From NCBI RefSeq assembly GCF_001921205.1, contig NZ_MSIE01000039.1, positions 1 through 64,000 of the forward strand: DNA of 64,000 bases. Direction: 5' to 3'. This DNA comes from Actinophytocola xanthii. Lineage in GTDB: Bacteria; Actinomycetota; Actinomycetes; Mycobacteriales; Pseudonocardiaceae. Below the pieces are notes generated by a model. The model was not told where the DNA came from, did no database searches, and saw nothing but the letters and a program-made list of their open reading frames with translations. Shown one piece after another: positions 53,862-64,000 of this stretch; the first letter of the stretch is position 1, and every line of letters starts with the position of its first letter. Both the position numbers and the translations under genes were made by a program.

Positions 53862-54992
53862 ATGGGTGGTCAGACGGCCGACTCCAGTGACTACTACGTC
53901 AACGGGGGCGTGAACTGGGCGGCGTTCAGCCTGGCGGAACTGGTGGCGATGGTGTCCGACCAGGCCAGCGTCCCCCAGCTCGTCCGCCTCGCCCAGGACT
54001 GGCGCGAGACCGGCGACGGCGTGGTGGCCGCGGCCGACGAGCTCGGCGAGGCGCTCGACGACCTCATGTACTACTGGACGGGAGCCTCCGCCGAGAAGGC
54101 GAGGCACGCCGTGGCGCTGAACGCCCAGTGGGTCGCCGACCTCGGTACCACCGCCCACCAGATGGGTGATCCCATCGAGGAGGCGGCCGGTGCCCTGAAG
54201 GCCGCGCAGGAGGCCATGCCCCCGCTCCCGGCCACCCCGGCCAGCCCGTTCCCCGGAGCCGCGCCACATGGGGCGGCCGAGACCGGTGCGCTCACCCAGA
54301 GCTCCCTCGGTGCTGCCGTCGGTGCCACGGCGGAGAGCGCGGACGGCGGGTTCGCCGCGCAGGCGGAGCAGGAGGAGCTGAAGCGCGTCGCGGTGGAGAC
54401 CATGCAGCGCTTCGAGGCGGCGGCGCTCGGCATCGACCGGACGATCCCGCGGTTCCTCGGGCAGGACACGGTGCTGCGGCCGGACCCGGACGACTCGGTG
54501 GTCGACGAGGGTCCGGAGCGAGACCTGGGCGGCGGGTCGTCATGGGTCAAGAAGGTCACCCAGACCGCCGGGGTCGACCAGCGCTGGCAGGTGCTCACCG
54601 GGATGGGCGACCAGGCGACCGGGGCCGCCGCCCAACCCGTGGGTGCCGGTAGCGGCGGCGACGGTGTCGGCGGCAGGGGCTTCGGTGCGGTGTCGGGCGG
54701 TGTCGGCGGCGGCATGCTCGCCGCCGGCCCCGGGGCGGGAGCCGGGCCCGGTCCGGGAGGCGGCGGTGTTCGGCCGGGTATCGGTCTGCCCGGCCGCGTG
54801 GCGCCCGCCGGCCCCGGCGCGGTGCCGGCGGGCGCGTCCGGCGGCGCCGCCGCCCCGATCGGTGGGGCGCCGATGGGCGCCGGCCTCGGTACGGGCAGCG
54901 ACGCACAGCAGCACCGCAGACGGTTCCCGTTCGACGCCGAGGACCCGTTCGACCCAGGGCAGAAGGCGTCGCCACCGGTCATCGGCCTCTGA
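53862..54992 (+). CDS. PPE-like type VII secretion substrate, module A
   Basis: A 376-residue ESX substrate. A helical N-terminal domain (about 1-120) contains the W-x-G turn at Trp72-Thr-Gly74 (YYWTGASAEKA), as in WXG100/PPE proteins. A second conserved block (KRVAVETMQRFEAAALGIDRT, about 170-190) is followed by RWQVLTGMG, a Gly/Pro/Ala-rich linker and an acidic end finishing DPGQKASPPVIGL. The same blocks occur in the module B paralogue. It is expected to pair with the next gene's product and be guided by EspG. The ATG at 53862 follows GGGAG. It has no catalytic domain that I can see. Confidence 0.8.
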   Translation: MGGQTADSSDYYVNGGVNWAAFSLAELVAMVSDQASVPQLVRLAQDWRETGDGVVAAADELGEALDDLMYYWTGASAEKARHAVALNAQWVADLGTTAHQMGDPIEEAAGALKAAQEAMPPLPATPASPFPGAAPHGAAETGALTQSSLGAAVGATAESADGGFAAQAEQEELKRVAVETMQRFEAAALGIDRTIPRFLGQDTVLRPDPDDSVVDEGPERDLGGGSSWVKKVTQTAGVDQRWQVLTGMGDQATGAAAQPVGAGSGGDGVGGRGFGAVSGGVGGGMLAAGPGAGAGPGPGGGGVRPGIGLPGRVAPAGPGAVPAGASGGAAAPIGGAPMGAGLGTGSDAQQHRRRFPFDAEDPFDPGQKASPPVIGL

Positions 54993-55018
54993 GCCGCCAG
55001 CAGGGCACGAGGGAAGCG

Positions 55019-56227
55019 ATGGAACAGGAGCAGGTCGGGAACATGGCCGCGGCCGAGCAGGACGTGGTGGCGACCGGGGGCGAGGCGCCGCCGCCGATGC
55101 CGGTCACCACCGCGACGCCCGCCCCGAGCACGCCCGAGTACGGCTGGGCGGTGGACCCGGACCGGATGCGCGCGTTCGTCGGTTCGGTCACCCGGGCCCG
55201 ATCGTTCCTGGACGCGGTGCAGGCGAAGGTGTCGCGGATGCAGGGCGCCGACTTCACGCCCCAGCTCGGCACCAGCCCGGTGGGCCAGCAGCTGGCGAAG
55301 AAGTTCGACGACCGGCTCAACTCGACGTCGGGCCTGCGAGCGATGCTCGAGGAGGCCATGCGCCGCATGCAGACGTTCATCGCGAGTGCGGAGGCCGCGG
55401 CCCGCTCGTACAACGAGATGGACGAGACGGCCAAGGCGAAGTTCGACGGCATCCTCCCGGACGTGGGCGGTTTGCTGAAGGACGTGGTCGCCGACCTCGC
55501 GACCAGCGGCCCGGGCGGCACCACCAAGGACAACCCCTACGACGACCACGGCACCTACGGCGACCACGACCACCACGACGACCACGACGAGGCCGGTGAC
55601 GACCAGGGTGGGGGCCCGGCTGGTGGCGAGGACAAGCCTGGCAGTGGGCCTCCGGCTGGTGGCGACGGTCAGGACGGCGCTGGTGGCAAGGACCAGGACG
55701 AGGCCGGTTCGGGTCAGGACAAGCCTGGCAGTGGGCGTCCGGCTGGTGGCGACGGTCAGGACGGCGCCGGTGACAAGGACCAGGACGAGGCCGGTTCGGG
55801 CCAGGACAAGCCTGACAGCGAGCCTCCGGTCGACGGCGAGGGCGGCGACCAGGCTGGTGGCGGCGGTCAGGACGACGCCGACGGCGAAGATCAGCATGAG
55901 GCTGGTGTGCGCCCGGACCAGGCCGGCGGCGGGCGTCCGACAGGTGGCCAGGGCAGCGACCAGCCTGGCAGCGATGCTCAGAACGGCGAAGACCAGGGCG
56001 AGACCGAGCCTCCGCCAGCTGACGACGGCGACGACCAGACCGGTGCCATCGGTCAGGACCAGGCCGAGGGCCAGAACGGAACCGGTGCGGCCCCCAGCGG
56101 CGACAAGGGCGATGACCGCGACGAGAGCCAGCGCCAGAACCAGAGCGGGCACGAGACCGCCGGCATGACCCCGGCTCGCGGAACCGACGGCCCCACCCCG
56201 ACCGACACCCGGTACCGGTCGAACTAG
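55019..56227 (+). CDS. PE-like/WXG100-like ESX substrate with long acidic repeat tail, module A
   Basis: A 402-residue protein with a helical hairpin of about 100 residues (45-145). It has the conserved turn LGTSPVGQ (83-90) and the type VII signal Tyr131-x3-Asp135 (YNEMD). It lacks W-x-G, so it plays the PE role opposite the PPE-like protein upstream. From residue 175 a His/Asp-rich stretch leads into a 220-residue tail of Gly, Asp, Gln and Pro, partly built of 29-residue repeats. The ATG at 55019 follows GAGGGAAG. The paralogue in module B ends right after the signal and has no tail. Confidence 0.8.
   Translation: MEQEQVGNMAAAEQDVVATGGEAPPPMPVTTATPAPSTPEYGWAVDPDRMRAFVGSVTRARSFLDAVQAKVSRMQGADFTPQLGTSPVGQQLAKKFDDRLNSTSGLRAMLEEAMRRMQTFIASAEAAARSYNEMDETAKAKFDGILPDVGGLLKDVVADLATSGPGGTTKDNPYDDHGTYGDHDHHDDHDEAGDDQGGGPAGGEDKPGSGPPAGGDGQDGAGGKDQDEAGSGQDKPGSGRPAGGDGQDGAGDKDQDEAGSGQDKPDSEPPVDGEGGDQAGGGGQDDADGEDQHEAGVRPDQAGGGRPTGGQGSDQPGSDAQNGEDQGETEPPPADDGDDQTGAIGQDQAEGQNGTGAAPSGDKGDDRDESQRQNQSGHETAGMTPARGTDGPTPTDTRYRSN
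55631..55804 (+). repeat. 87-bp in-frame tandem repeats in the PE-like gene
   Basis: Two nearly identical 87-bp units (55631-55717 and 55718-55804) encode 29 residues beginning DKPGSG and ending EAGSGQ. A third, degenerate copy starts at 55805 (DKPDSE). The unit is a multiple of three, so copy number can change without breaking the frame. Confidence 0.85.
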
Positions 56228-57019
56228 ATGGTCATCGCGCGGGCGGCCGTCGCGCCGGAGGAGGCGGATCTGCTGTGTGCAGCGGCGAACTGCCCGCCGC
56301 CCTTTCCGTTGCGTGTGCCCGACCACGGGCGGACCGTCAACGAGCGCCGGTCCGTCCTCCGCGCGGCCGGGGAACGGCTCGCCGCCCGCGGGCTGGCCGA
56401 CGAGCGCGGCCCCCTCGACGTCGCCGAGGCGTTCGCCCATCTCCTGCAGGACTCCACGCTCGCCCTGGACGTGCAGCTCTCCGTCGGCACCGACGTGTTC
56501 GCCGTGGTGCTCCTCGCCCGCCGGGACGTCGCCGTCCTGACGACCCAACGCCTCACCGGCGGCGACCCCACCCTGCGCATGGCCGAGCTGTCCCTCGACG
56601 ACGCCGTCGGCGAGCTGCTCGCGGGCATCCCCGCCCACCCGGCCGCCCTGACCGCGCCGTTCTCCCTGCCAAGCGGCGCGATAGGCCGCCTCTACCGAGA
56701 GCTCCGCTCCCGCGGCGACATCGGCCCGGCGGAATGGGAGGAGCTCCTCGCCGCGCACGGCGTCACCGACCGCCTGGCCCGGCGGCTCGTCACCCACCTG
56801 CAGCCCGTCCTCGGCAACGGCAACGCCGGCCTCGCGACCCGCGGCGGGTACGCCGGCGCCTGGCGCCGCACCGGCCCCGAACTCCGCTGGCTGGACACCG
56901 AACGCGGCCGGTTCCAGCTCGTCCCGGCCGACGACGGTGAGTGGCTGAGCGTCAACCCGATGCACCCGCCGGACCTGGCAGCCGCCCTGCGCGGACTGGT
57001 CGGCGCCCTCCGGCGCTAG
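56228..57019 (+). CDS. ESX secretion-associated protein EspG, module A
   Basis: A 263-residue cytoplasmic chaperone of the EspG family, which binds the tip of PPE-type substrates and delivers them to the EccC ATPase. Family features include AERLAARGLADERGPLDVAEAF-type helices (about 55-75), TAPFSLPSGAIG, LQPVLGNGNAG and ELRWLDTERGRFQLV with a final WLSVNP. The last blocks are shared almost word for word with the module B copy. The ATG at 56228 begins directly after the TAG of the PE-like gene (TAGATG), so they are coupled. Confidence 0.85.
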   Translation: MVIARAAVAPEEADLLCAAANCPPPFPLRVPDHGRTVNERRSVLRAAGERLAARGLADERGPLDVAEAFAHLLQDSTLALDVQLSVGTDVFAVVLLARRDVAVLTTQRLTGGDPTLRMAELSLDDAVGELLAGIPAHPAALTAPFSLPSGAIGRLYRELRSRGDIGPAEWEELLAAHGVTDRLARRLVTHLQPVLGNGNAGLATRGGYAGAWRRTGPELRWLDTERGRFQLVPADDGEWLSVNPMHPPDLAAALRGLVGALRR

Positions 57020-57129
57020 GGCATTTGCCAGCGGAAACTTCCCCACGCGATTGTTCGATGAGTCTCCCTAGTGTCAGACCCATCCGATACCGTGACGGTC
57101 GGAGCCGATGATCGTGGGGAGCTAAAGGC

Positions 57130-58452
57130 GTGGGCGTCTTCGAGCAGATCATCCAGCAGGCGTTGGATGCCAAGAACCGGGCAGTGCAGGCCGCCCAGCA
57201 GGCAGAACAGGAGCGTCGCCGCCGTCGCGAGGAGAACGACCTCTACGTCACCGGCGGCGTGCACTGGAACGGCTACGGCCTCGAGTCGCTGATCAGGATG
57301 GTGGCCGAACGCTCCAACCCGGGCCAGCTGGACGCGTTGGCCGGCGAGTGGAGCCTGCACGGCCGGGCCGTCGTCACCACCTCCGAGAACCTGCGTCGCT
57401 CGCTGTCGACGCTGATGCAGTACTGGTCCGGCTCCGCCGCCGACCTCGCCGTCCAGAAGGTCAGCAACAACGTCGCCTGGATCGCCGAGCTCGGCGGCAC
57501 GGCGCAGCAGATGGCCGGGCCCATCCAGGACGCCAGCGGTGCGCTCCGCTCGGCCCAGGACACCATGCCGGGCATGCCGAAGAACAACTGGCTCGCCTCG
57601 GCGGGCGGTGGCGCCGCGGCCGGAATGATGATCGGCGGCCCGATCGGCGCGGCGTTCGGCGCGGCCCTCGGCGGTATCGCCAGCGCCTTCGGCTTCGGCA
57701 ACAAGAAGAAGAAGATGAAGCGCAAGGCCGTGCAGACCATGCAGCGCTACGAGGGCGCCCTGCTCGGCATCGACCAGACCACGCCACAGTTCGGCCTGCC
57801 CGCGGACGGGGTGAACCCCGGCGACGGCCCGGTCGGCCGACCCGACCCGGGCATCGGCACCCCGGGCGTTCCGGCTCCGCCTCCTGGCACGGGCACCGGT
57901 CCCGGAACCAGTCGTCCCGGCCTGCCGGCCCCCGGCCCGGTCCCGCCCTTCGACTGGGCACCGACGGACCCCTCGTTCGCCGGCACCCCCGAGGGTCGCT
58001 GGCAGTCGCTGACCGGGCTCGGCCAGAACGCGGTCGGCGGCGGCGGTGGACCCACCGCCGGCGGCGGCAACCTCGGTCTCGGCGCGCTCCCGCCCGGCGT
58101 GCTCGCCGGCAGCGCCCGGCCGGGAACCATGGGCGGTGCGTACGGCGCGGGTCGCGGTGGTGCCTACGGCGGTCGGGGGGTCGGCGCCGGCGCGAGGGGC
58201 GCGGCCGGTGGTTACCCCGGCGGGATGGGCGGTGCGGCCGGCGGACGTGGCGACCGGGAGTACCGCGGTCGCGGCCGGTTCAGCCGCACCGGAGCGCTCA
58301 CCGGCGGTGGACGCGGCGGCTACGGCATGGGCGGGGTGCCCGCCGGGCGGGGTGAGGAGGAGCGCGACGGTGAGCACCGCAGGCGCGTCCCGCTCGAGGA
58401 CGATCCGTTCTCCACGGACATGAAGGCCGCGCCGCCGGTCATCGGTATCTGA
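57130..58452 (+). CDS. PPE-like type VII secretion substrate, module B
   Basis: A 440-residue paralogue of the module A PPE-like protein. A charged N-terminal extension (1-35) precedes the helical domain with Trp99-Ser-Gly101 (QYWSGSAADLA). A glycine-rich hydrophobic stretch (about 157-185, GMMIGGPIGAAFGAALGGIASAF) follows. It leads into the shared block KRKAVQTMQRYEGALLGIDQT, RWQSLTGLGQ, a long Gly/Arg-rich linker and the tail PFSTDMKAAPPVIGI. The module A copy lacks the hydrophobic stretch. The GTG at 57130 follows GGGGAG. A TACCGT box near 57090 suggests its own promoter. Confidence 0.8.
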   Translation: MGVFEQIIQQALDAKNRAVQAAQQAEQERRRRREENDLYVTGGVHWNGYGLESLIRMVAERSNPGQLDALAGEWSLHGRAVVTTSENLRRSLSTLMQYWSGSAADLAVQKVSNNVAWIAELGGTAQQMAGPIQDASGALRSAQDTMPGMPKNNWLASAGGGAAAGMMIGGPIGAAFGAALGGIASAFGFGNKKKKMKRKAVQTMQRYEGALLGIDQTTPQFGLPADGVNPGDGPVGRPDPGIGTPGVPAPPPGTGTGPGTSRPGLPAPGPVPPFDWAPTDPSFAGTPEGRWQSLTGLGQNAVGGGGGPTAGGGNLGLGALPPGVLAGSARPGTMGGAYGAGRGGAYGGRGVGAGARGAAGGYPGGMGGAAGGRGDREYRGRGRFSRTGALTGGGRGGYGMGGVPAGRGEEERDGEHRRRVPLEDDPFSTDMKAAPPVIGI

Positions 58453-58466
58453 GAGGGGACGACCAG

Positions 58467-58820
58467 ATGTATGTCGACGACGCGACCGCGTCCTCCGGCG
58501 CCGGTGGCTGGCAGGTCGAGCCCGAGCAGGTTCGCGAGTTCGCCCGCGCTGTCGAGGCGGTCCGCGCCGATCTCGAGGCGATCACGCGTGAGGTGGAGGA
58601 CCTGTCCACGCCGAACTACGCGCCGCTGCTCGGCACCAGCCCCGTCGGCCAGGAGCTGGCGGAGAAGTTCACCGACCGCATGGGAAGCGAGCGCGGGCTG
58701 CGCGGCCAGCTGAACGTCGCGCTGGAGCGCATGGAGGAGTTCATCTCCAGCGCGGAGAAGACCGCCTCCCAGTACCTCCAGACCGACGACGACAACGCCA
58801 GCAAGCTCAGGTTCGTGTAG
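58467..58820 (+). CDS. PE-like/WXG100-like ESX substrate, module B
   Basis: A 117-residue helical-hairpin protein, the size of a classic WXG100/PE protein. It has the turn LGTSPVGQ (55-62) and the secretion signal Tyr103-x3-Asp107 (YLQTD), and ends soon after. There is no W-x-G. It is paralogous to the first 145 residues of the module A partner and should form a four-helix heterodimer with the PPE-like protein upstream. The ATG at 58467 follows GAGGGGAC; its TAG shares one base with the GTG of the EspG gene. Confidence 0.82.
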   Translation: MYVDDATASSGAGGWQVEPEQVREFARAVEAVRADLEAITREVEDLSTPNYAPLLGTSPVGQELAEKFTDRMGSERGLRGQLNVALERMEEFISSAEKTASQYLQTDDDNASKLRFV

Positions 58821-59647
58821 TGGAGCTGCGCGCCGACCTCGGCGAGCCGCTGCTGCCGGTGGAGGTCGACCTGCTGTGCGCGTTCGCCGAGGTGGAGGCG
58901 CCGTTCCCGCTCGAGGTACCGGCGTCGGGCCAGACCGAGATCGAGCGCCGCTACCGGTACCGGGAGGCTCGCGAGCAGCTGACCGCCCGGGGTCTCGCCG
59001 ACGAGAACGGCCCGCTCGGCGTCGCCGAGGACTTCGTGTTCCTCGTTCGGTCCGGGACCGGCGTGCTCGACCTGGTGCTGGCCACCGAGAAGGTCTCCTT
59101 CGCCGCGGCCGTGCTGACCCACCGCGACGAGTCGTTGCTGGTCACCCAGGACTTCGCCGACCCGGACGGCGTCATCAGGATGAAGGCGGCCACGCTCGAC
59201 GACGCCGTCGACGACCTGATGAAGCTCGTCCCGCGGGTCGAGGCGCCGATGATCGCGCCGTTCAGCCTGCCGCGCCGGGCGCTCGAGGACGCGTTCACAG
59301 CGATGATGGCCAGGATGCCCGAGGACGGCGGCAGACCGGAGCAGATGACCGCGCAGGAGGTCGACGACCTGCTGCGCTCCCACGGCGTCGACGACCGGGT
59401 CGCGCGCCGCATGGTGTCGGTGCTGCAGCCGGTGCTGGGCAACGGCCAGGCCGGCAACGCCCGCCGCGACGACTCCGAGGACCAGTGGCAGCGCCTCGGC
59501 GAGGAGCTGCGCTGGCTCGACACCGAGCGCGGCCGGTTCAAGCTGGCCGGTGACGACGCCTGGATGAGCGTGAACCCGCTCTCCCGGGAGGAGATCCGCA
59601 AGGAGCTGCGCTCGATGGCCACCCGGACCCGCTCGCGTTCGCGCTGA
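58820..59647 (+). CDS. ESX secretion-associated protein EspG, module B
   Basis: A 275-residue EspG-family chaperone, paralogous to the one in module A. Shared segments are EQLTARGLADENGPLGVAEDF, APFSLPRRALED, LQPVLGNGQAGNA and ELRWLDTERGRFKL with WMSVNPL. It differs most in the middle (MMARMPEDGGRPEQMTAQEV), the part expected to face the client protein. The GTG at 58820 overlaps the preceding TAG. Its 3' end lies 12 bases from the convergent mycP gene. Confidence 0.87.
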   Translation: MELRADLGEPLLPVEVDLLCAFAEVEAPFPLEVPASGQTEIERRYRYREAREQLTARGLADENGPLGVAEDFVFLVRSGTGVLDLVLATEKVSFAAAVLTHRDESLLVTQDFADPDGVIRMKAATLDDAVDDLMKLVPRVEAPMIAPFSLPRRALEDAFTAMMARMPEDGGRPEQMTAQEVDDLLRSHGVDDRVARRMVSVLQPVLGNGQAGNARRDDSEDQWQRLGEELRWLDTERGRFKLAGDDAWMSVNPLSREEIRKELRSMATRTRSRSR

Positions 59648-59659
59648 CCACCGCGGACG

Positions 59660-61114
59660 TCACGACAGGTCGGGCCGGTCTCCCCGCTGACGGCGAACGG
59701 TGTGCACGACGAACAGCGTCAGCAGCAGCAGCCCCAGCCCGCCGGCCGACCCGATGACCGCCACCTGCACCGGTGCCCAGTCGCGCTCGTGCGGCGGCGG
59801 CATCTCGAACGGCACCTCGACCGCCTCGTCGGGGGGGATGTTCTCCTCGGCGGGAATCATCGTGGTCAGCGCCGAGACCGGGTTGACCATGCCGTAACCG
59901 ACCTGGATGTTGTGCCCGCCGTTCGCCGCCGGGTGCGCGGCCGTGATCTTGATGCGCTCCATGATCTGCTTGGCGGTCAGCGGCTGGCCCAGCTTTTCGA
60001 ACCGTTCCCGGACCAGCGCCGCGAGGCCGGCCACGTAGGGCGCGGCGAAGCTGGTGCCCTGGATCGGGGTCTGCTCGCCCTTCTCGTCCGCTGTCACGTT
60101 CACCAGGCCGTCCCGGTCGCCGGGGTTCAGGGAGATGATCTCCGTTCCGGGAGCGGCGACGCTCACCCAGGGGCCGTGCATGGAGAACCCGGCGGGATCG
60201 CCGCTGCGGTCCACCGCGGCCACCGACAGCACGTACTCGGAGAACCAGGGTGGGCTGACGATGAAGCGCGGGTTGGCCGGGTCCGAGTTGTTCTGCTCCC
60301 GGCAGTTCGGGCCGGGGATGTTGCCGGCCGAGGAGACCAGCACGACGTCCTTCTCCTCGACCGCGTACCGCAGCGCCCGCTGGAGGTTCCGCTCGGACGC
60401 GGTGATCGGCACGTTGGCGGCGGCGCGACAGGTGTCGACGGACATGTTGATCACGTCGACGTTCCGGTCCGCTGCCTCGACGACCGCCTCGGCGAGCGTG
60501 TCGAGACTGCCTGCGGATGCTCGCCCCTCTTCCTGGGAGCCCTGCGGTGGCTTGTACTCGTAGAACTCGCTCGACTGCCGGATGCTGAGGATCTTCGCGT
60601 CGGGGGCGATCCCGCGGAAGCCGATGTCGTCCGAGGGCGGCTTGGCCGCGATGATCCCGGCGACCTGGGTGCCGTGCCCGTCGCAGTCGGACAGCCCGTC
60701 GCCGCCCGCCTCGACGTAGTCCCCGCCGCCCTCCAGCCGGCCCGCCAGGTAGTCGTGCTGGTTGACCCCGGTGTCGATGACCGCGACGGTCTGGTTTGCA
60801 CCGGTGGCGAACGCGCTCAGGTCCTGGAAGCGCAGTACGTCCTGGCCCCACGCCTTTTCCTGGAGCTGCACGTTGCCGTCCAGCGAGGTGACACAGCCGA
60901 CCGAGGTCCGGGTGTAGGGCCGGTCGGGCTGGCCGTCGTTCTCCGGCTTGATCCGGTCGGTCAGCGGTGGTGGGGTCGGCCCCGCGTCCTGCTCGGCCTG
61001 GGTCCCGTTCGGCTGGGAGTCCTGGGGTTGCGCGCCGGCCACCGGGGCGGCCGGCACCAGCACGGCCAGCAGCGTGGCCGCGAGGAGGCGGGCGGTCGTC
61101 GTCGTGCCGTTCAT
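59660..61114 (-). CDS. mycP: Type VII secretion-associated serine protease, mycosin
   Basis: A 484-residue membrane-anchored subtilase of the ESX system. Signal peptide at 1-28; catalytic Asp114 (VIDTGV), His147 (DGHGTQVAG) and Ser355 (GTSFAAP). Mycosin-type N-terminal extension wraps the domain (CVTSLDG cysteine), and a proline-rich linker leads to a C-terminal membrane helix (about 452-474, VQVAVIGSAGGLGLLLLTLFVVH) with a basic tail. It processes substrates and stabilises the ESX membrane complex. The ATG at 61114 shares a base with the eccD stop (TGATG). Confidence 0.94.
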   Translation of the reverse strand: MNGTTTTARLLAATLLAVLVPAAPVAGAQPQDSQPNGTQAEQDAGPTPPPLTDRIKPENDGQPDRPYTRTSVGCVTSLDGNVQLQEKAWGQDVLRFQDLSAFATGANQTVAVIDTGVNQHDYLAGRLEGGGDYVEAGGDGLSDCDGHGTQVAGIIAAKPPSDDIGFRGIAPDAKILSIRQSSEFYEYKPPQGSQEEGRASAGSLDTLAEAVVEAADRNVDVINMSVDTCRAAANVPITASERNLQRALRYAVEEKDVVLVSSAGNIPGPNCREQNNSDPANPRFIVSPPWFSEYVLSVAAVDRSGDPAGFSMHGPWVSVAAPGTEIISLNPGDRDGLVNVTADEKGEQTPIQGTSFAAPYVAGLAALVRERFEKLGQPLTAKQIMERIKITAAHPAANGGHNIQVGYGMVNPVSALTTMIPAEENIPPDEAVEVPFEMPPPHERDWAPVQVAVIGSAGGLGLLLLTLFVVHTVRRQRGDRPDLS

Positions 61115-62517
61115 CAGTTGGCGGGCAGGATGTTGACGTGGCGCAACGTGCTGTAGAGGTTCATCACGGCCAGCGCGAGCGGTAGCAGCAGCGCGATGCA
61201 GATGGCCTCGATGATCTCCACCGTCCGCCGCAGCGGCGGGGAGAACCGCTGCTCGGGGAAGATCACGCCGAGCACCAGCGCCGCGGCCGCGAGCAGCACC
61301 AGCGAGCCGAACACCCACAGCAGCCGGTCGACGGTGTCGGCCCCGATCAGCCAGCCGATCACGATCCCCGCGGCGGACAGCATGCCGGTCGCCAGCAGGG
61401 CGATGGCCTGGCTGCCGTTGGCGTAGGTGCGGGCCCGCAGCAGCAGGACCAGCGTGGCGGTGATGGCCATCGCGATCGCCCACAGATCGCCCTTGCCGGC
61501 GGTGATGATCGCCGAGATGGCGGCCGCGCTCCCGCAGCCGATGATCATGCCGGTCATGTACTCGTGCGCGAGGCCGGCCCGCCGCTCGATCGAACGGTAG
61601 TCCGGGAAGCCGGTGTCCTCCTTGAGGTCCTCGGCGCTTCCCGGCACGTTCGGCAGCGGCAACCGAGCCAGCTGGATCGTCAGCCTGGGCAGTACCGACA
61701 ACCCGGCGAGCGCGACCGCGGCGGTCCCCGCGGCGATGCCGGGAGCGGGGTGCGCGATCAGCGTCCCGATCGTGAAGGCCACCACACCGATCAGCGCCGC
61801 GCTGCCAGCGGCGACGAACGTCGTGACACCCGAGCCGATCAGCATGATCGAGGCGGCGGCGAAGATCAGCACCAGTGCGCTCGCCAGCAGCAGGCTGGGG
61901 CGCCCGGTCGCGCCGGGAACGATGTAGAGGCCGGCGACGAACGCCATCGGCAGGCCCCCCGCCGCGGCGATCAGCACCCCGGCGGTCTTGGCCTGGTAGG
62001 CCCGGGCGATCACCGCGCCGAGCGCGACCGCGACGACGGCACCCGCGCCCGCCGTGACCGACGCGCCGATCTGGGAGCCGCCGAACAGTGGACCGCTCAG
62101 CAGCACCGTGATCGCGGCCATGACCAGGGCCAGCGCGCCCGCGATGTACCCGATGCGGTTCGCGGTCTGCTTGGTCCACGGCCGGTAGCTGTCCGGGGAC
62201 GCCTCGGCGATCGCGTCGACCACGTCGTCGTACAGCGGGGGCGGCGGGTTCTCGGCGCGCTTGCGCAGCTGGAGCAGGTCACCGTCCACCACGCCGAGCG
62301 AGGCGAGCGTGCGGCTCGGGTCGAGCGGTGCGTCGCCCAGCTTGGCCAGGCACCATCCGCCGTGGCGCGCGCCACCGTCCGGTGTCGCCTCCTTGGCCAT
62401 CTCCAGCAGCATCGGCAGCAGGTCGGCCACCGCTACCCCGGCCGGCAGCGCCACGTCGATCCGCGTCCTCGGTGCCACCACCGTCACCCGGCTGAACACC
62501 GTCGTCCCGGTTGCCAC
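61114..62517 (-). CDS. eccD: Type VII secretion integral membrane protein EccD
   Basis: A 467-residue channel component of ESX. An N-terminal ubiquitin-like (YukD) domain (residues 1-90, FSRVTVVAPRTRIDVALPAG to LLQLRKR) is followed by eleven hydrophobic segments from IGYIAGALALVMAAITVLL to IEAICIALLLPLALAVMNL. I prefer the GTG at 62517 because it is seven bases after GAGGGG; an in-frame GTG five codons upstream is the alternative. It is coupled to mycP and divergent from eccC. Confidence 0.93.
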   Translation of the reverse strand: MATGTTVFSRVTVVAPRTRIDVALPAGVAVADLLPMLLEMAKEATPDGGARHGGWCLAKLGDAPLDPSRTLASLGVVDGDLLQLRKRAENPPPPLYDDVVDAIAEASPDSYRPWTKQTANRIGYIAGALALVMAAITVLLSGPLFGGSQIGASVTAGAGAVVAVALGAVIARAYQAKTAGVLIAAAGGLPMAFVAGLYIVPGATGRPSLLLASALVLIFAAASIMLIGSGVTTFVAAGSAALIGVVAFTIGTLIAHPAPGIAAGTAAVALAGLSVLPRLTIQLARLPLPNVPGSAEDLKEDTGFPDYRSIERRAGLAHEYMTGMIIGCGSAAAISAIITAGKGDLWAIAMAITATLVLLLRARTYANGSQAIALLATGMLSAAGIVIGWLIGADTVDRLLWVFGSLVLLAAAALVLGVIFPEQRFSPPLRRTVEIIEAICIALLLPLALAVMNLYSTLRHVNILPAN

Positions 62518-62672
62518 CGCTGTACCCCTCACCTGTCACGTCTGCCGATAACGCCCCCTGGCTGTCGGGGGCGGCCCCTAGTATGGCCGTACCGGGACCG
62601 GCGCGTGCGCGGGTTCCGCGGATAGAGGCAGATACGGATCGACACGCTCGAGCACGACGGGGGCAGACACCG

Positions 62673-64000
62673 GTGAGCACGCTTCAGTTCAAGCGGTCAC
62701 CCCGCTTGGCGGCGCCACGCCAGCCCGGCGGCGAGGTTCACCTCGAACCGCCGCCGGAGGTGCCCCGCGTCATCCCGGGCAACATCCTGATGAAGCTGAT
62801 GCCGGTCATCATGATCATCGCGATGCTCGGCATGATGGCGCTGCTGTTCACCGCGGGCGGCGCCCTCGGCCGCAACCCGGTCACCCTGCTGTTCCCGATG
62901 ATGATGATGATCTCGATGGTCGGGATGTTCGGCCAGGGGCGCGGCGGCGGCCAGAAGAAGGCCGAGATGAACGAGGACCGCAAGGACTACCTGCGCTACC
63001 TCGGCCAGATGCGCGACCGGGCCCGCGAGGCCTCGCTCGACCAGCGCGCCGCGTTGGAGTGGGTGCACCCCGACCCGCAGGCGCTGTGGTCGATCGCCAC
63101 CAGCAGGCGGATGTGGGAGCGCCGCCAGTCCGACCCCGACTTCTGCCACCTGCGCGCGGGGCGGGGCTCGCAGCGCCTGGCCACCCGCCTGGTGCCGCCG
63201 CAGACCGGCCCGGTCGACGAGCTCGAGCCGATCGCCACGCTGGCGCTGCGCCGCTTCGTCCGGGCGCACTCGATCGTGCCGGAGCTGCCGATCCAGATCG
63301 CCATCCGCGGGTTCGCCGCCGTGGGCCTGGCCGGCGAGAAAGAGCTGACCAGGGGCCTCGCCCGCGCGCTGATCGCCCAGTTGGTGACCTTCCACACCCC
63401 CGACGACGTCCTGGTGGCGATCGTCACCTCCGGCCGGACCAAGGAGGAGTGGGAGTGGGCGAAGTGGCTGCCGCACGTCCAGCACCCCACGATGGTCGAC
63501 GGCATCGGCCAGCTGCGGATGATGGCCGGCTCCCTGGCCCAGGTCGAGGCCTGGCTGGACGAGGAGCTGCGCGACCGGCAGCGGTTCACCCGCAACGCCC
63601 CGCCGCAGCCCGACCAGCCGCAGGTGCTGATCGTGATCGACGACGGCGAGGTCAGCCGCGAGGAGCAGATCGTCCTCGAGGAGGGGCTGGTCGGCGTCAC
63701 GCTGATGGACCTGTCCGACAGCCTCGGCAACCTCACCGCCCGCCGCGGCCTGCGCCTGGTGGTCGAGAAGGACCGGCTCGGCGCGCGCAGCGCGAGCGGC
63801 GTGGAGTGGTTCGCCAAGCCCGACTCGATGACCGTGGCCGAGGCCGAGGCGCTGGCCCGCAAGCTCTCCCCGTACCGGCTCGGCGCCGCCGCGGCCGACG
63901 AGGGCGGCGAGGAGCCGCTGCTGTCCAACCCGACACTGCTCGAGCTGCTCGGCATCCCCGGCGACCCGATGACCTTCGACGTCCAGCAGGCCTGGCGCCC
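62673..64000 (+). CDS. eccC: Type VII secretion ATPase EccC (N-terminal part, cut by window edge)
   Basis: The first 442 codons of the FtsK/SpoIIIE-type motor of ESX. A cytoplasmic start is followed by two membrane segments (LMPVIMIIAMLGMMALLFT and VTLLFPMMMMISMVGMFG). The stalk domain follows (DRKDYLRYLGQMRDRAREASLDQRAALEWVHPDP), then the first ATPase-like (DUF) domain (WERRQSDPDFCHLRAGRG, GLAGEKELTRGLARALIAQL). The Walker motifs of the main ATPase modules lie beyond the right edge. The GTG at 62673 is at the usual distance before the first membrane segment. The 155-base gap to eccD contains a TAGTAT box near 62580. Confidence 0.93.
   Translation, partial: MSTLQFKRSPRLAAPRQPGGEVHLEPPPEVPRVIPGNILMKLMPVIMIIAMLGMMALLFTAGGALGRNPVTLLFPMMMMISMVGMFGQGRGGGQKKAEMNEDRKDYLRYLGQMRDRAREASLDQRAALEWVHPDPQALWSIATSRRMWERRQSDPDFCHLRAGRGSQRLATRLVPPQTGPVDELEPIATLALRRFVRAHSIVPELPIQIAIRGFAAVGLAGEKELTRGLARALIAQLVTFHTPDDVLVAIVTSGRTKEEWEWAKWLPHVQHPTMVDGIGQLRMMAGSLAQVEAWLDEELRDRQRFTRNAPPQPDQPQVLIVIDDGEVSREEQIVLEEGLVGVTLMDLSDSLGNLTARRGLRLVVEKDRLGARSASGVEWFAKPDSMTVAEAEALARKLSPYRLGAAAADEGGEEPLLSNPTLLELLGIPGDPMTFDVQQAWR

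Follow-up and report, generated by a model that had tools for sequence, protein, structure and literature searches.

The two gene sets described here raise the question of why three adjoining genes for a PPE-like protein, a PE-like protein and an EspG chaperone should occur twice in succession beside an ESX core, and whether this arrangement represents two chaperone-client sets served by one machine. The window, the whole stretch of 64,000 nucleotides of Actinophytocola xanthii that was analyzed (contig NZ_MSIE01000039.1, positions 1 to 64,000), contains both modules together with part of the core.

Two modules in succession

A sequence-only reading of the window had proposed two consecutive modules with the gene order PPE-PE-EspG and with short sequence blocks shared between the paralogs. 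All six open reading frames are present (Table 1), forming module A (53862-57019) and module B (57130-59647); their positions bear out the order in both, and the blocks LGTSPVGQ, LRWLDTERGRF and PPVIG are found in both members of the PE-like, EspG and PPE-like pairs, respectively. The accompanying statement that each gene overlaps or nearly touches the next holds inside the modules, where the PPE-PE and PE-EspG spacings are 26 bp and 0 bp in A and 14 bp and a 1-bp overlap in B, but not at the A/B junction, where 110 bp separate the two. A scan for promoters and terminators gave a single promoter-like site, on the minus strand, and a single terminator-like site; neither was usable.

Table 1. 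Features of the two modules and the adjoining ESX core in the window.
Feature	Position	Strand	Remarks
PPE-like protein A	53862..54992	+	376 aa; WxG hairpin, Gly-rich linker, tail ASPPVIGL, without glycine zipper
PPE A C-terminal VIG tail	54900..54989	+	51.1 bits
PE-like protein A	55019..56227	+	402 aa; YxxxD core and long D/G/Q-rich low-complexity C-terminal extension
EspG chaperone A	56228..57019	+	263 aa; PF14011, 124.2 bits
PPE-like protein B	57130..58452	+	440 aa; charged-residue-rich N-terminal helix, WxG hairpin, glycine zipper, Gly-rich linker, tail AAPPVIGI
PPE B glycine-zipper and lysine-rich segment	57571..57726	+	residues about 148-199, after long hairpin helix; absent in A
PPE B C-terminal VIG tail	58360..58449	+	56.7 bits
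PE-like protein B	58467..58820	+	117 aa, YxxxD; length about that of single-module genera
EspG chaperone B	58820..59647	+	275 aa; PF14011, 102.1 bits
Rearrangement junction, EspG B/mycP (convergent genes)	59648..59659	.	synteny
mycP (mycosin)	59660..61114	-	TIGR03921, 353 bits, above NCBIfam cut-off
eccD	61114..62532	-	TIGR03920, 303 bits, above NCBIfam cut-off; start may be 62499
eccC	62673..64000, on to contig position 66671	+	named from N-terminal sequence and relatives, not by profile

The members of each pair are genuine paralogs, with 46% identity over 261 aa for the EspGs (E 2e-64), 43% over 103 aa for the PE-like proteins (E 3e-25) and 39% over 209 aa for the PPE-like proteins (E 4e-33). 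Both EspGs exceed the PF14011 cut-off of 27 bits. PPE A passes PF00823 (33.1 bits against a cut-off of 26) and PPE B falls slightly below it at 24.9 bits; the tryptophan and glycine of the WxG between the long helices are invariant in 22 PPE domains from B and single modules and in 16 from A. PPE proteins carry an N-terminal Pro-Pro-Glu motif, and since this is missing from the N termini of PPE A and PPE B we name them PPE-like only. At E≤1 the Pfam PE family gives no match to PE A or PE B, and for this reason they are called PE-like; PE B has a sub-threshold EspC match (16.6 bits against a cut-off of 23.5), and YxxxD/E follows the hairpin in all 24 aligned PEs. Nine of the twelve A-type PEs were called at 247 aa or more. 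Genes were called with our own codon-usage script, which gives approximate start positions; for a few PEs the start is wrong, and how far PE A of Actinokineospora extends at its N terminus is uncertain.

Duplication history and the adjoining ESX core

The concatenated tree, built from 30 of an initial 38 modules (28 of the window type and two outgroup modules), supports A at 100, B at 99 and A+B at 100; on the first two values we rejected independent duplications in the two genera that carry both modules. Single-gene trees of EspG, PE and PPE each recover the A modules as a clade (support 100, 97 and 67), the EspG tree leaving out EspG pieces under 180 aa; for PPE and PE, B does not resolve as a clade. 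These phylogenies show that the modules derive from a single block duplication that predates the split between Actinophytocola and Actinokineospora. We rejected an A-type assignment for the single module of Labedaea, which the EspG-only tree favors (support 99) and the concatenated tree opposes.

Both modules occur in five of six Actinophytocola genomes (in one case split over two contig ends) and in 12 of 13 Actinokineospora species among the matches listed (one split). Kibdelosporangium, Actinocrispum, Labedaea, Umezawaea and Streptoalloteichus carry a single window-type module, and these single-module genera resemble B; no window-type module was found at 45% identity or more in G113, which bears the genus code of Kibdelosporangium/Actinocrispum, or in G006, which bears that of Streptoalloteichus. 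One Actinophytocola genome (G002) has kept A and lost B except for an EspG B remnant of 119 aa, and Actinokineospora iranica has A and no B. With one genome per genus lacking B, the A/B pair is not obligatory and B is not essential there.

The mean dN/dS values for A and B are 0.375 and 0.383 for EspG, 0.316 and 0.319 for PPE and 0.460 and 0.463 for PE, with individual pairs ranging from 0.20 to 0.80 and controls of 0.16 for eccD and 0.54 for mycP; these come from a simple Nei-Gojobori count on four to six genomes. Modules A and B are under similar purifying selection, and both have retained the hairpin, the signal and the tail. The proposal of two complete, separately conserved chaperone-client sets is supported, as is the co-inheritance of the three genes. 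That one module might be a decayed copy, the outcome named beforehand as fatal to that proposal, does not apply in most species seen. A reading of one module as a decaying duplicate could draw on the two genomes reduced to module A, with or without an EspG B fragment, and on a PPE B frame without the tail in one metagenome-assembled genome; set against the retention of both modules in 5/6 and 12/13 genomes and the equal dN/dS, it is hardly credible.

Past eccC lie an Rv3446c-type gene with an Hsp70 domain, two small WXG-type genes, rplM, rpsI and glmM (the last names given by eye; the WXG-type pair, rplM and rpsI were named from sequence and relatives, not by profile). The modules adjoin this core in all six Actinophytocola genomes and only in that genus, lying away from the core in the other genera examined, because of a reciprocal rearrangement of which both junctions were found: one between EspG B and mycP, and the other between 55083 and 55298 on contig C127 of the same genome (G000:C127). 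On that contig, the other side of the rearrangement, is eccB (PF05108, 367 bits), which now adjoins the old CorA neighbor of the module; eccE, like eccB, is on another contig than the modules. Adjacency to mycP, eccD and eccC is the product of this later rearrangement and not the origin of the pair, and a conserved two-module ESX locus is ruled out by the synteny and the reciprocal junction. In answer to the suggested survey of one versus two modules beside eccD/mycP, most Actinophytocola and Actinokineospora genomes hold two modules, which lie beside the core in Actinophytocola only. The notion of a compact two-set system belonging to one ESX locus is not supported, given this restricted adjacency and the presence of 14 EspGs and two EccD-bearing systems in this genome.

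Client tip, chaperones and VIG tail

The PPE-like proteins differ between the modules. A glycine zipper with a lysine-rich end is present in 8/8 B and 11/11 single modules scored and in 0/12 A modules, and a KKK/KKR run in 19/19 B and single-module segments and 0/12 A segments; maximum segment hydropathy is 0.62-1.22 in A and 1.20-1.71 in B and single modules, ranges that touch. This scoring covers eight of ten B modules (one PPE was cut at a contig edge and one was absent from its contig) and rows that have both the anchors and a PPE, those set aside being mostly distant modules. In a PDB profile search the profile of 16 PPE A domains matches PPE41 (E 0.0096), aligning with its residues 28-106; the PPE B profile matches PPE41 only at E 0.23 and ESAT-6 at E 0.011. 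Further matches of the PPE B profile are to gp45, a phage cargo protein, to an OmpA-family protein and to prion chains; we attribute them to its Gly/Ala segment. On the PPE41 alignment, the zipper segment would follow the predicted location of the EspG-binding tip, the part of PPE that EspG contacts in mycobacteria; this mapping is indirect, and over the segment the AlphaFold2 model of PPE B has low confidence, with residues 152-189 below pLDDT 50. The EspG-binding domain of PPE sets system specificity in M. marinum, according to PMC5311947.

The comparison with single-module genera indicates that A is the derived module, its PPE having lost the zipper and lysine-rich segment, and that B retains the state of those genera. 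Since B kept the zipper while A lost it and has a long PE extension in most species seen, a division of labor is likely, in which the B client would be membrane-active or membrane-anchoring and the A client soluble or surface-extended; the client tip is likely the part that diverged.

We propose that each module probably encodes an exported PE-like/PPE-like pair with its dedicated EspG, and that the two arose by block duplication, diverged at the client tip and were later joined to the core. In the cytosol, EspG would cover the hydrophobic end of the PPE hairpin; the YxxxD/E signal on the PE partner would bring the trimer to EccC, and the PE/PPE pair would be exported on release of EspG; the Gly-rich linker could then present the VIG tail for docking on a partner common to such PPEs.

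The chaperones themselves diverged little in a class-specific manner. The AlphaFold2 model of EspG B is a confident alpha/beta fold (pLDDT 92, pTM 0.86); the EspG sequence profile matched no solved EspG in the PDB, which makes interface mapping indirect, and a PDB profile search with PE gave nothing useful. Only five EspG positions are class-fixed differently in A and B, and at three of them the state of the single modules is that of A, so the two EspGs may be interchangeable. Pooled escorts would then serve all PPE clients, and the duplication would have added a second client, for dosage or novelty, with no sorting. The persistence of A without B in two genomes and the median of ten EspGs per genome of one family fit such pooling as well. 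Against it, the trees of EspG, PE and PPE place the same modules in A, with no mixed module seen, and in both losses of B the client went together with most or all of the chaperone, observations that linkage alone could explain; the EspGs are, besides, just 46% identical. We regard a shared pool as somewhat unlikely.

The tail, of the form ...F..D...APPVIG, is common to EspG-linked PPEs across the family: of 1,124 called proteins, 70 bear the tail, and 68 of these look T7SS-type, as judged by tail and neighborhood rather than each by profile. A text search of an open-access collection for PPVIG or 'VIG motif' gave no relevant paper, and none among the matches listed for type VII secretion, Pseudonocardiaceae and EspG combined all three. 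Alternatively, module A could be a derived adaptor rather than cargo, bringing other substrates to the machine by means of the VIG tail and the charged extension of its PE. There is a precedent in PPE68, whose C-terminal ten residues are needed for secretion of EspE, not of PPE68 itself, in M. marinum (PMC9765416); a tail-bearing neighbor is found at 13 of the 14 EspG loci of this genome, and an RHS-repeat protein with sub-threshold similarity to a T7SS signal clusters with another of its EspG modules. No effector gene was recognized beside A or B, however, and B has the same tail, so we consider an adaptor role unlikely and retain the reading of both modules as cargo.

Exporting machine and relation to known systems

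Among 150 genomes of the family (Pseudonocardiaceae), 147 carry EspG, with medians of ten EspGs and two EccDs per genome; with usually 16 candidates scored per genome the EspG counts are lower bounds, as are those of the other surveys (mycP 10, mycobacterial-type family 13, tail 40 candidates per genome). In mycobacteria there is about one EspG for each ESX system, and in family f7, which we take to be the mycobacterial family, 26 of 32 EspG-bearing genomes hold two to five.

The exporter is most likely the ESX-4-like core. A second T7SS on contig C57, with its own eccD, EccB (309.7 bits), FtsK/SpoIIIE-type ATPase and subtilase, could instead export the clients, alone or as one of several systems, and the position of the modules away from the core in other genera examined would suit this. 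On the other hand, a single EccD match is found in 57 of the 150 genomes, 43 of which carry at least five EspGs, and EspGs are few where the match to this mycP is weak or absent (0-3 in 11 such genomes, a level seen in 10 of the 139 others), an association that rests on two genera and is broken by G039, which has a good mycP match and no EspG. Export by the second system appears distinctly unlikely.

There is a broader reading, which we hold tentatively and with some doubt: in Pseudonocardiaceae many chaperones would serve one machine, about ten EspG/PE/PPE modules per genome feeding one or two ESX machines, with a lineage-wide C-terminal VIG tag on each client docking on one common receptor, and remodeling of the A/B tip after duplication, from a membrane-inserting to a soluble client, would have split the traffic. 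If so, the pair is a natural experiment in the remodeling of an EspG-binding tip. In mycobacteria a client is linked to a single ESX machine by its EspG-binding domain (PMC5311947); given many EspGs with one or two EccDs, EspG is here hardly a machine selector alone, and may serve to sort clients, or to stage them, for a single machine. A and B stem from one duplication and have diverged chiefly in their clients, which makes them well suited to clean tests of binding and swapping in soil bacteria; the VIG tail, short and open to testing, is a candidate docking motif.

The modules resemble mycobacterial PE-PPE-EspG sets such as EspG1 with PE35-PPE68_1 and EspG5 with PE25-PPE41 (PMC5311947) in their Pfam EspG, WxG PPE hairpin, small YxxxD/E partner and adjoining genes; they differ in the order PPE-PE-EspG, the lack of an N-terminal PE/PPE motif, the zipper after the hairpin in B, the VIG tail and the high ratio of EspGs to EccDs. 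As in the LXG toxins TelE and EsxX, a T7SS hairpin is followed by a glycine zipper; in those toxins the zipper is reported to be a C-terminal toxic part, whereas here it comes after the hairpin, with another helix and a long linker beyond it.

According to PMC4791881, espG/pe/ppe were gained on a plasmid, later than the divergence of Corynebacterium and Rhodococcus, and ESX-4EVOL is reported there in mycolic-acid producers; the presence of EspG in nearly all genomes of this family bears on that model of plasmid gain within mycolic-acid bacteria. A search of 72,556 plasmid records for a plasmid origin of this EspG type gave no match, which says little. As in the ESX-4 and ESX-4EVOL loci described there, mycP, eccD, eccC, an Rv3446c-type gene and a WXG-type pair lie beside rplM/rpsI, and as in ESX-4EVOL an ESX-4-like core occurs together with EspG, PPE and PE genes; unlike ESX-4EVOL, the EspG modules reached this core by rearrangement, and eccB and eccE lie outside the cluster on another contig.

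Distribution, age and maintenance of the module pair

Our ORF reading of the window, which belongs to a genome of 8.3 Mb, gives two modules of PPE-like, PE-like and EspG genes in succession, all on the + strand. Modules A and B share 39% identity between their PPEs, 43% between their PEs and 46% between their EspGs. The two consecutive modules claimed by the sequence-only reading are borne out, and they form a real, old and maintained pair. To place them, 150 Pseudonocardiaceae genomes were searched with EspG B, an identity of 45% or more being taken as window-type, and modules were counted from fetched regions and 27 named loci, two sets whose genomes largely overlap. Window-type EspG is present in 23/150 genomes. 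Both modules occur in five of six Actinophytocola genomes (the window genome, algeriensis, oryzae, a MAG, and xinjiangensis, where the pair is divided between two contig ends); the sixth, G002, holds module A and a 119-aa EspG_B remnant. The search returned 13 Actinokineospora species, of which 12 carry both, with the pegani pair split; in Actinokineospora iranica module A stands alone. Where a window-type module is present in Kibdelosporangium, Actinocrispum, Labedaea, Umezawaea, Streptoalloteichus and one further genus, it is single, and at 45% identity or more none was found in two members of single-module genera (G113 and G006). In Labedaea (L041/L078) a second, distantly related PPE/PE/EspG module lies past the CorA-like gene, near the window-type one; here modules adjoin without recent duplication.

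A concatenated tree of 30 modules supports A at 100, B at 99 and A+B at 100, and each clade divides by genus. In separate trees A is a single clade (EspG 100, PE 97, PPE 67); B is a clade for EspG (99), and the PPE and PE trees do not resolve it. The A stem is longer than the B stem. These phylogenies, with A as one clade for every gene, indicate a single duplication of the complete module that preceded the separation of Actinophytocola and Actinokineospora. The alternative that one module is a decayed copy is contradicted for most species by mean dN/dS within Actinophytocola, which is equal in A and B (EspG 0.375/0.383, PPE 0.316/0.319, PE 0.460/0.463; individual pairs 0.20-0.80) and argues that the pair is maintained. 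Against yardsticks of 0.16 for eccD and 0.54 for mycP, the rate of the modules exceeds that of the core gene eccD and does not exceed that of mycP.

Joining of the modules to the ESX core

Features of the module locus and related loci in the window genome (ribosomal gene, glmM and truA names assigned by eye)
Feature	Contig	Position	Strand	Match
Module A (PPE-like, PE-like, EspG)	C138	53862-57019	+	
Module B (PPE-like, PE-like, EspG)	C138	57130-59647	+	
mycP, eccD	C138	3' of module B	-	
eccC	C138	past mycP-eccD	+	
Hsp70-domain gene (Rv3446c type), two small WXG-type genes, rplM, rpsI, glmM	C138	past window end		
L010: WXG100-like small gene, 754-aa protein, small genes	C138	74223-77816, 3' of glmM		754-aa protein: N-terminal WXG100 similarity, below threshold
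CorA gene	C127	ends 55083		199.5 bits
WXG gene	C127	starts 55298, next to CorA gene		
103-aa gene, eccB, eccE, then truA-rpoA side	C127	past WXG gene		eccB 367 bits, eccE 99.5 bits
L089: EccB, EccD, FtsK/SpoIIIE-type ATPase, subtilase	C57			EccB 309.7 bits, EccD 207 bits
L015: region with an EspG/PE/PPE module	C172	150000-169000		

An ESX core next to rplM/rpsI occupies the usual ESX-4 position. The mycP-eccD-eccC-esx run leads toward rplM/rpsI in the fetched regions of three further genera; the region from a fourth stops short of rplM. The L010 genes beyond glmM may form a further set of T7SS effectors.

In the other genera examined, the modules mostly adjoin the same phosphoesterase/ParB-like genes and then a CorA-like gene, and they are apart from the ESX core, by 1.5 Mb for instance in the genome with a contig matching A. 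fastidiosa. The core order there is rpoA, rplQ, truA (named by eye), subtilase, unknown gene, eccE, eccB, 104-aa gene, WXG gene, mycP-eccD-eccC ... rplM. A single rearrangement joining EspG B to mycP was predicted to leave eccB on the CorA side, and this arrangement is present on C127 of the window genome, the one genome searched for the reciprocal junction. Both breakpoints fall between convergent genes, and the event separated eccB and eccE from mycP-eccD-eccC. That second junction identifies the joining of the modules to the core as derived. The sequence-only reading had put forward the pair beside eccD/mycP for survey in related genomes; among the genera examined, the EspG B-mycP joining is confined to Actinophytocola (6/6). 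Its compact two-cargo ESX locus stands only in part: the pair is real, old and maintained, but the locus was made by rearrangement, and the genome runs many modules.

Tandem duplicated mycP genes lie beside eccD in the Actinophytocola MAG (L025/L062) and in a Labedaea-type genome (G033, L092).

Client divergence and the probable exporting machine

In PPE B and the single-module PPEs, the long WxG helix is separated from the conserved helix after it by a segment such as GGGAAAGFAVGGPIGAAFGAAIGGIASAFGFG and then a run rich in lysine; this was scored in 8/8 B, 11/11 single and 0/12 A proteins, with the named loci concordant. The profile alignment of PPE A to PPE41 extends to residue 106, which would locate the segment at the tip region. 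An AlphaFold2 model of PPE B has a hairpin of helices 64-96 and 102-145, with residues 152-189 unresolved. Two papers report that residue 125 of PPE68 and PPE68_1, within the EspG-binding domain, is required for secretion (PMC9765416, PMC5311947). Among the PEs, 9/12 from module A are called at 247 aa or longer, with Pro-rich or Asp/Gly/Gln-rich extensions, and B and single PEs at 96-140 aa. Only five class-fixed differences separate EspG A from EspG B, the single-module state siding with A at three. The clear A/B change thus sits in the clients.

The window genome has 14 EspGs and two EccDs, the second EccD belonging to a separate T7SS locus with its own EccB (L089); the EspG search of this genome gave no match on that contig. 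Medians over the 150 family genomes are 10 EspG and 2 EccD, the counts being lower bounds. EspGs outnumber EccDs in 135/150, a single EccD match is found in 57, 43 of them with five or more EspGs, and the two counts correlate weakly (rho 0.23). Among 199 genomes sampled across the order, EspG is present in 36/37 Pseudonocardiaceae, in 32 genomes of f7, taken for the mycobacterial family (26/32 with 2-5 EspGs), and in 11 of other families, mostly as weak matches. Eleven genomes in which window mycP has a weak match (E above 1e-60) or none carry 0-3 EspGs, as do 10/139 of the others; the association of few EspGs with weak or absent window-type mycP is suggestive, because all eleven come from two genera. 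Genera g5 and g40 combine few EspGs (0-3) with a weak or absent mycP match, so that machine type and modules may have been lost together.

Elsewhere in the window genome, the cluster around the EspG/PE/PPE module of L015 includes small genes of T7SS type and an RHS-repeat protein of 1,579 aa, likely a polymorphic effector, whose T7SS-signal and WXG matches are both sub-threshold. Three of the orphan EspG modules (L013, L018, L022) adjoin DUF3558 proteins (PF12079) whose N termini resemble those of lipoproteins.

Taken together, the data best support a model in which a chaperone-client module was duplicated. After duplication the clients would have diverged at the predicted EspG-binding tip, and the PPE/PE clients of A and B would leave through an ESX-4-like machine alongside those of many other modules. 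Within this model we infer binding specificity, the identity of the machine and a role for the C-terminal tail.

The VIG tail

At 13/14 EspG loci of the window genome, a motif of P-x-x-I-G type lies close to the C terminus of a neighbouring protein; the remaining locus, L014, lacks a PPE-type neighbour. The motif lies within the last 34 residues of 70/1,124 distinct called proteins, of which 68 look T7SS-type, as judged by tail and neighbourhood; the others are an aquaporin-like and a 144-aa protein. The PPE B frame of the MAG (L062, on the same contig as L025) lacks the tail as called, through either a sequencing error or real loss.

Searched with a tail profile, 36/37 of the family genomes sampled hold 3-11 copies, and the tail-free one (G009) is also without EspG. 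Outside the family, 14/162 genomes give one match each (E 8e-6 to 0.009). Over 35 genomes the number of tails correlates with the number of EspGs (rho 0.81, phylogeny not removed). In f7, EspG occurs without the tail (weak tail matches in 3/32 EspG-bearing genomes), which shows that EspG as such does not require the tail. Nor is it confined to EspG neighbours, since clusters L047 and L058 hold a second tail-bearing protein with no EspG adjoining. Text searches of an open-access library returned no relevant paper on the motif. A functional PPE C terminus has a precedent in PPE68, whose last 10 residues are required for EspE secretion (PMC9765416).
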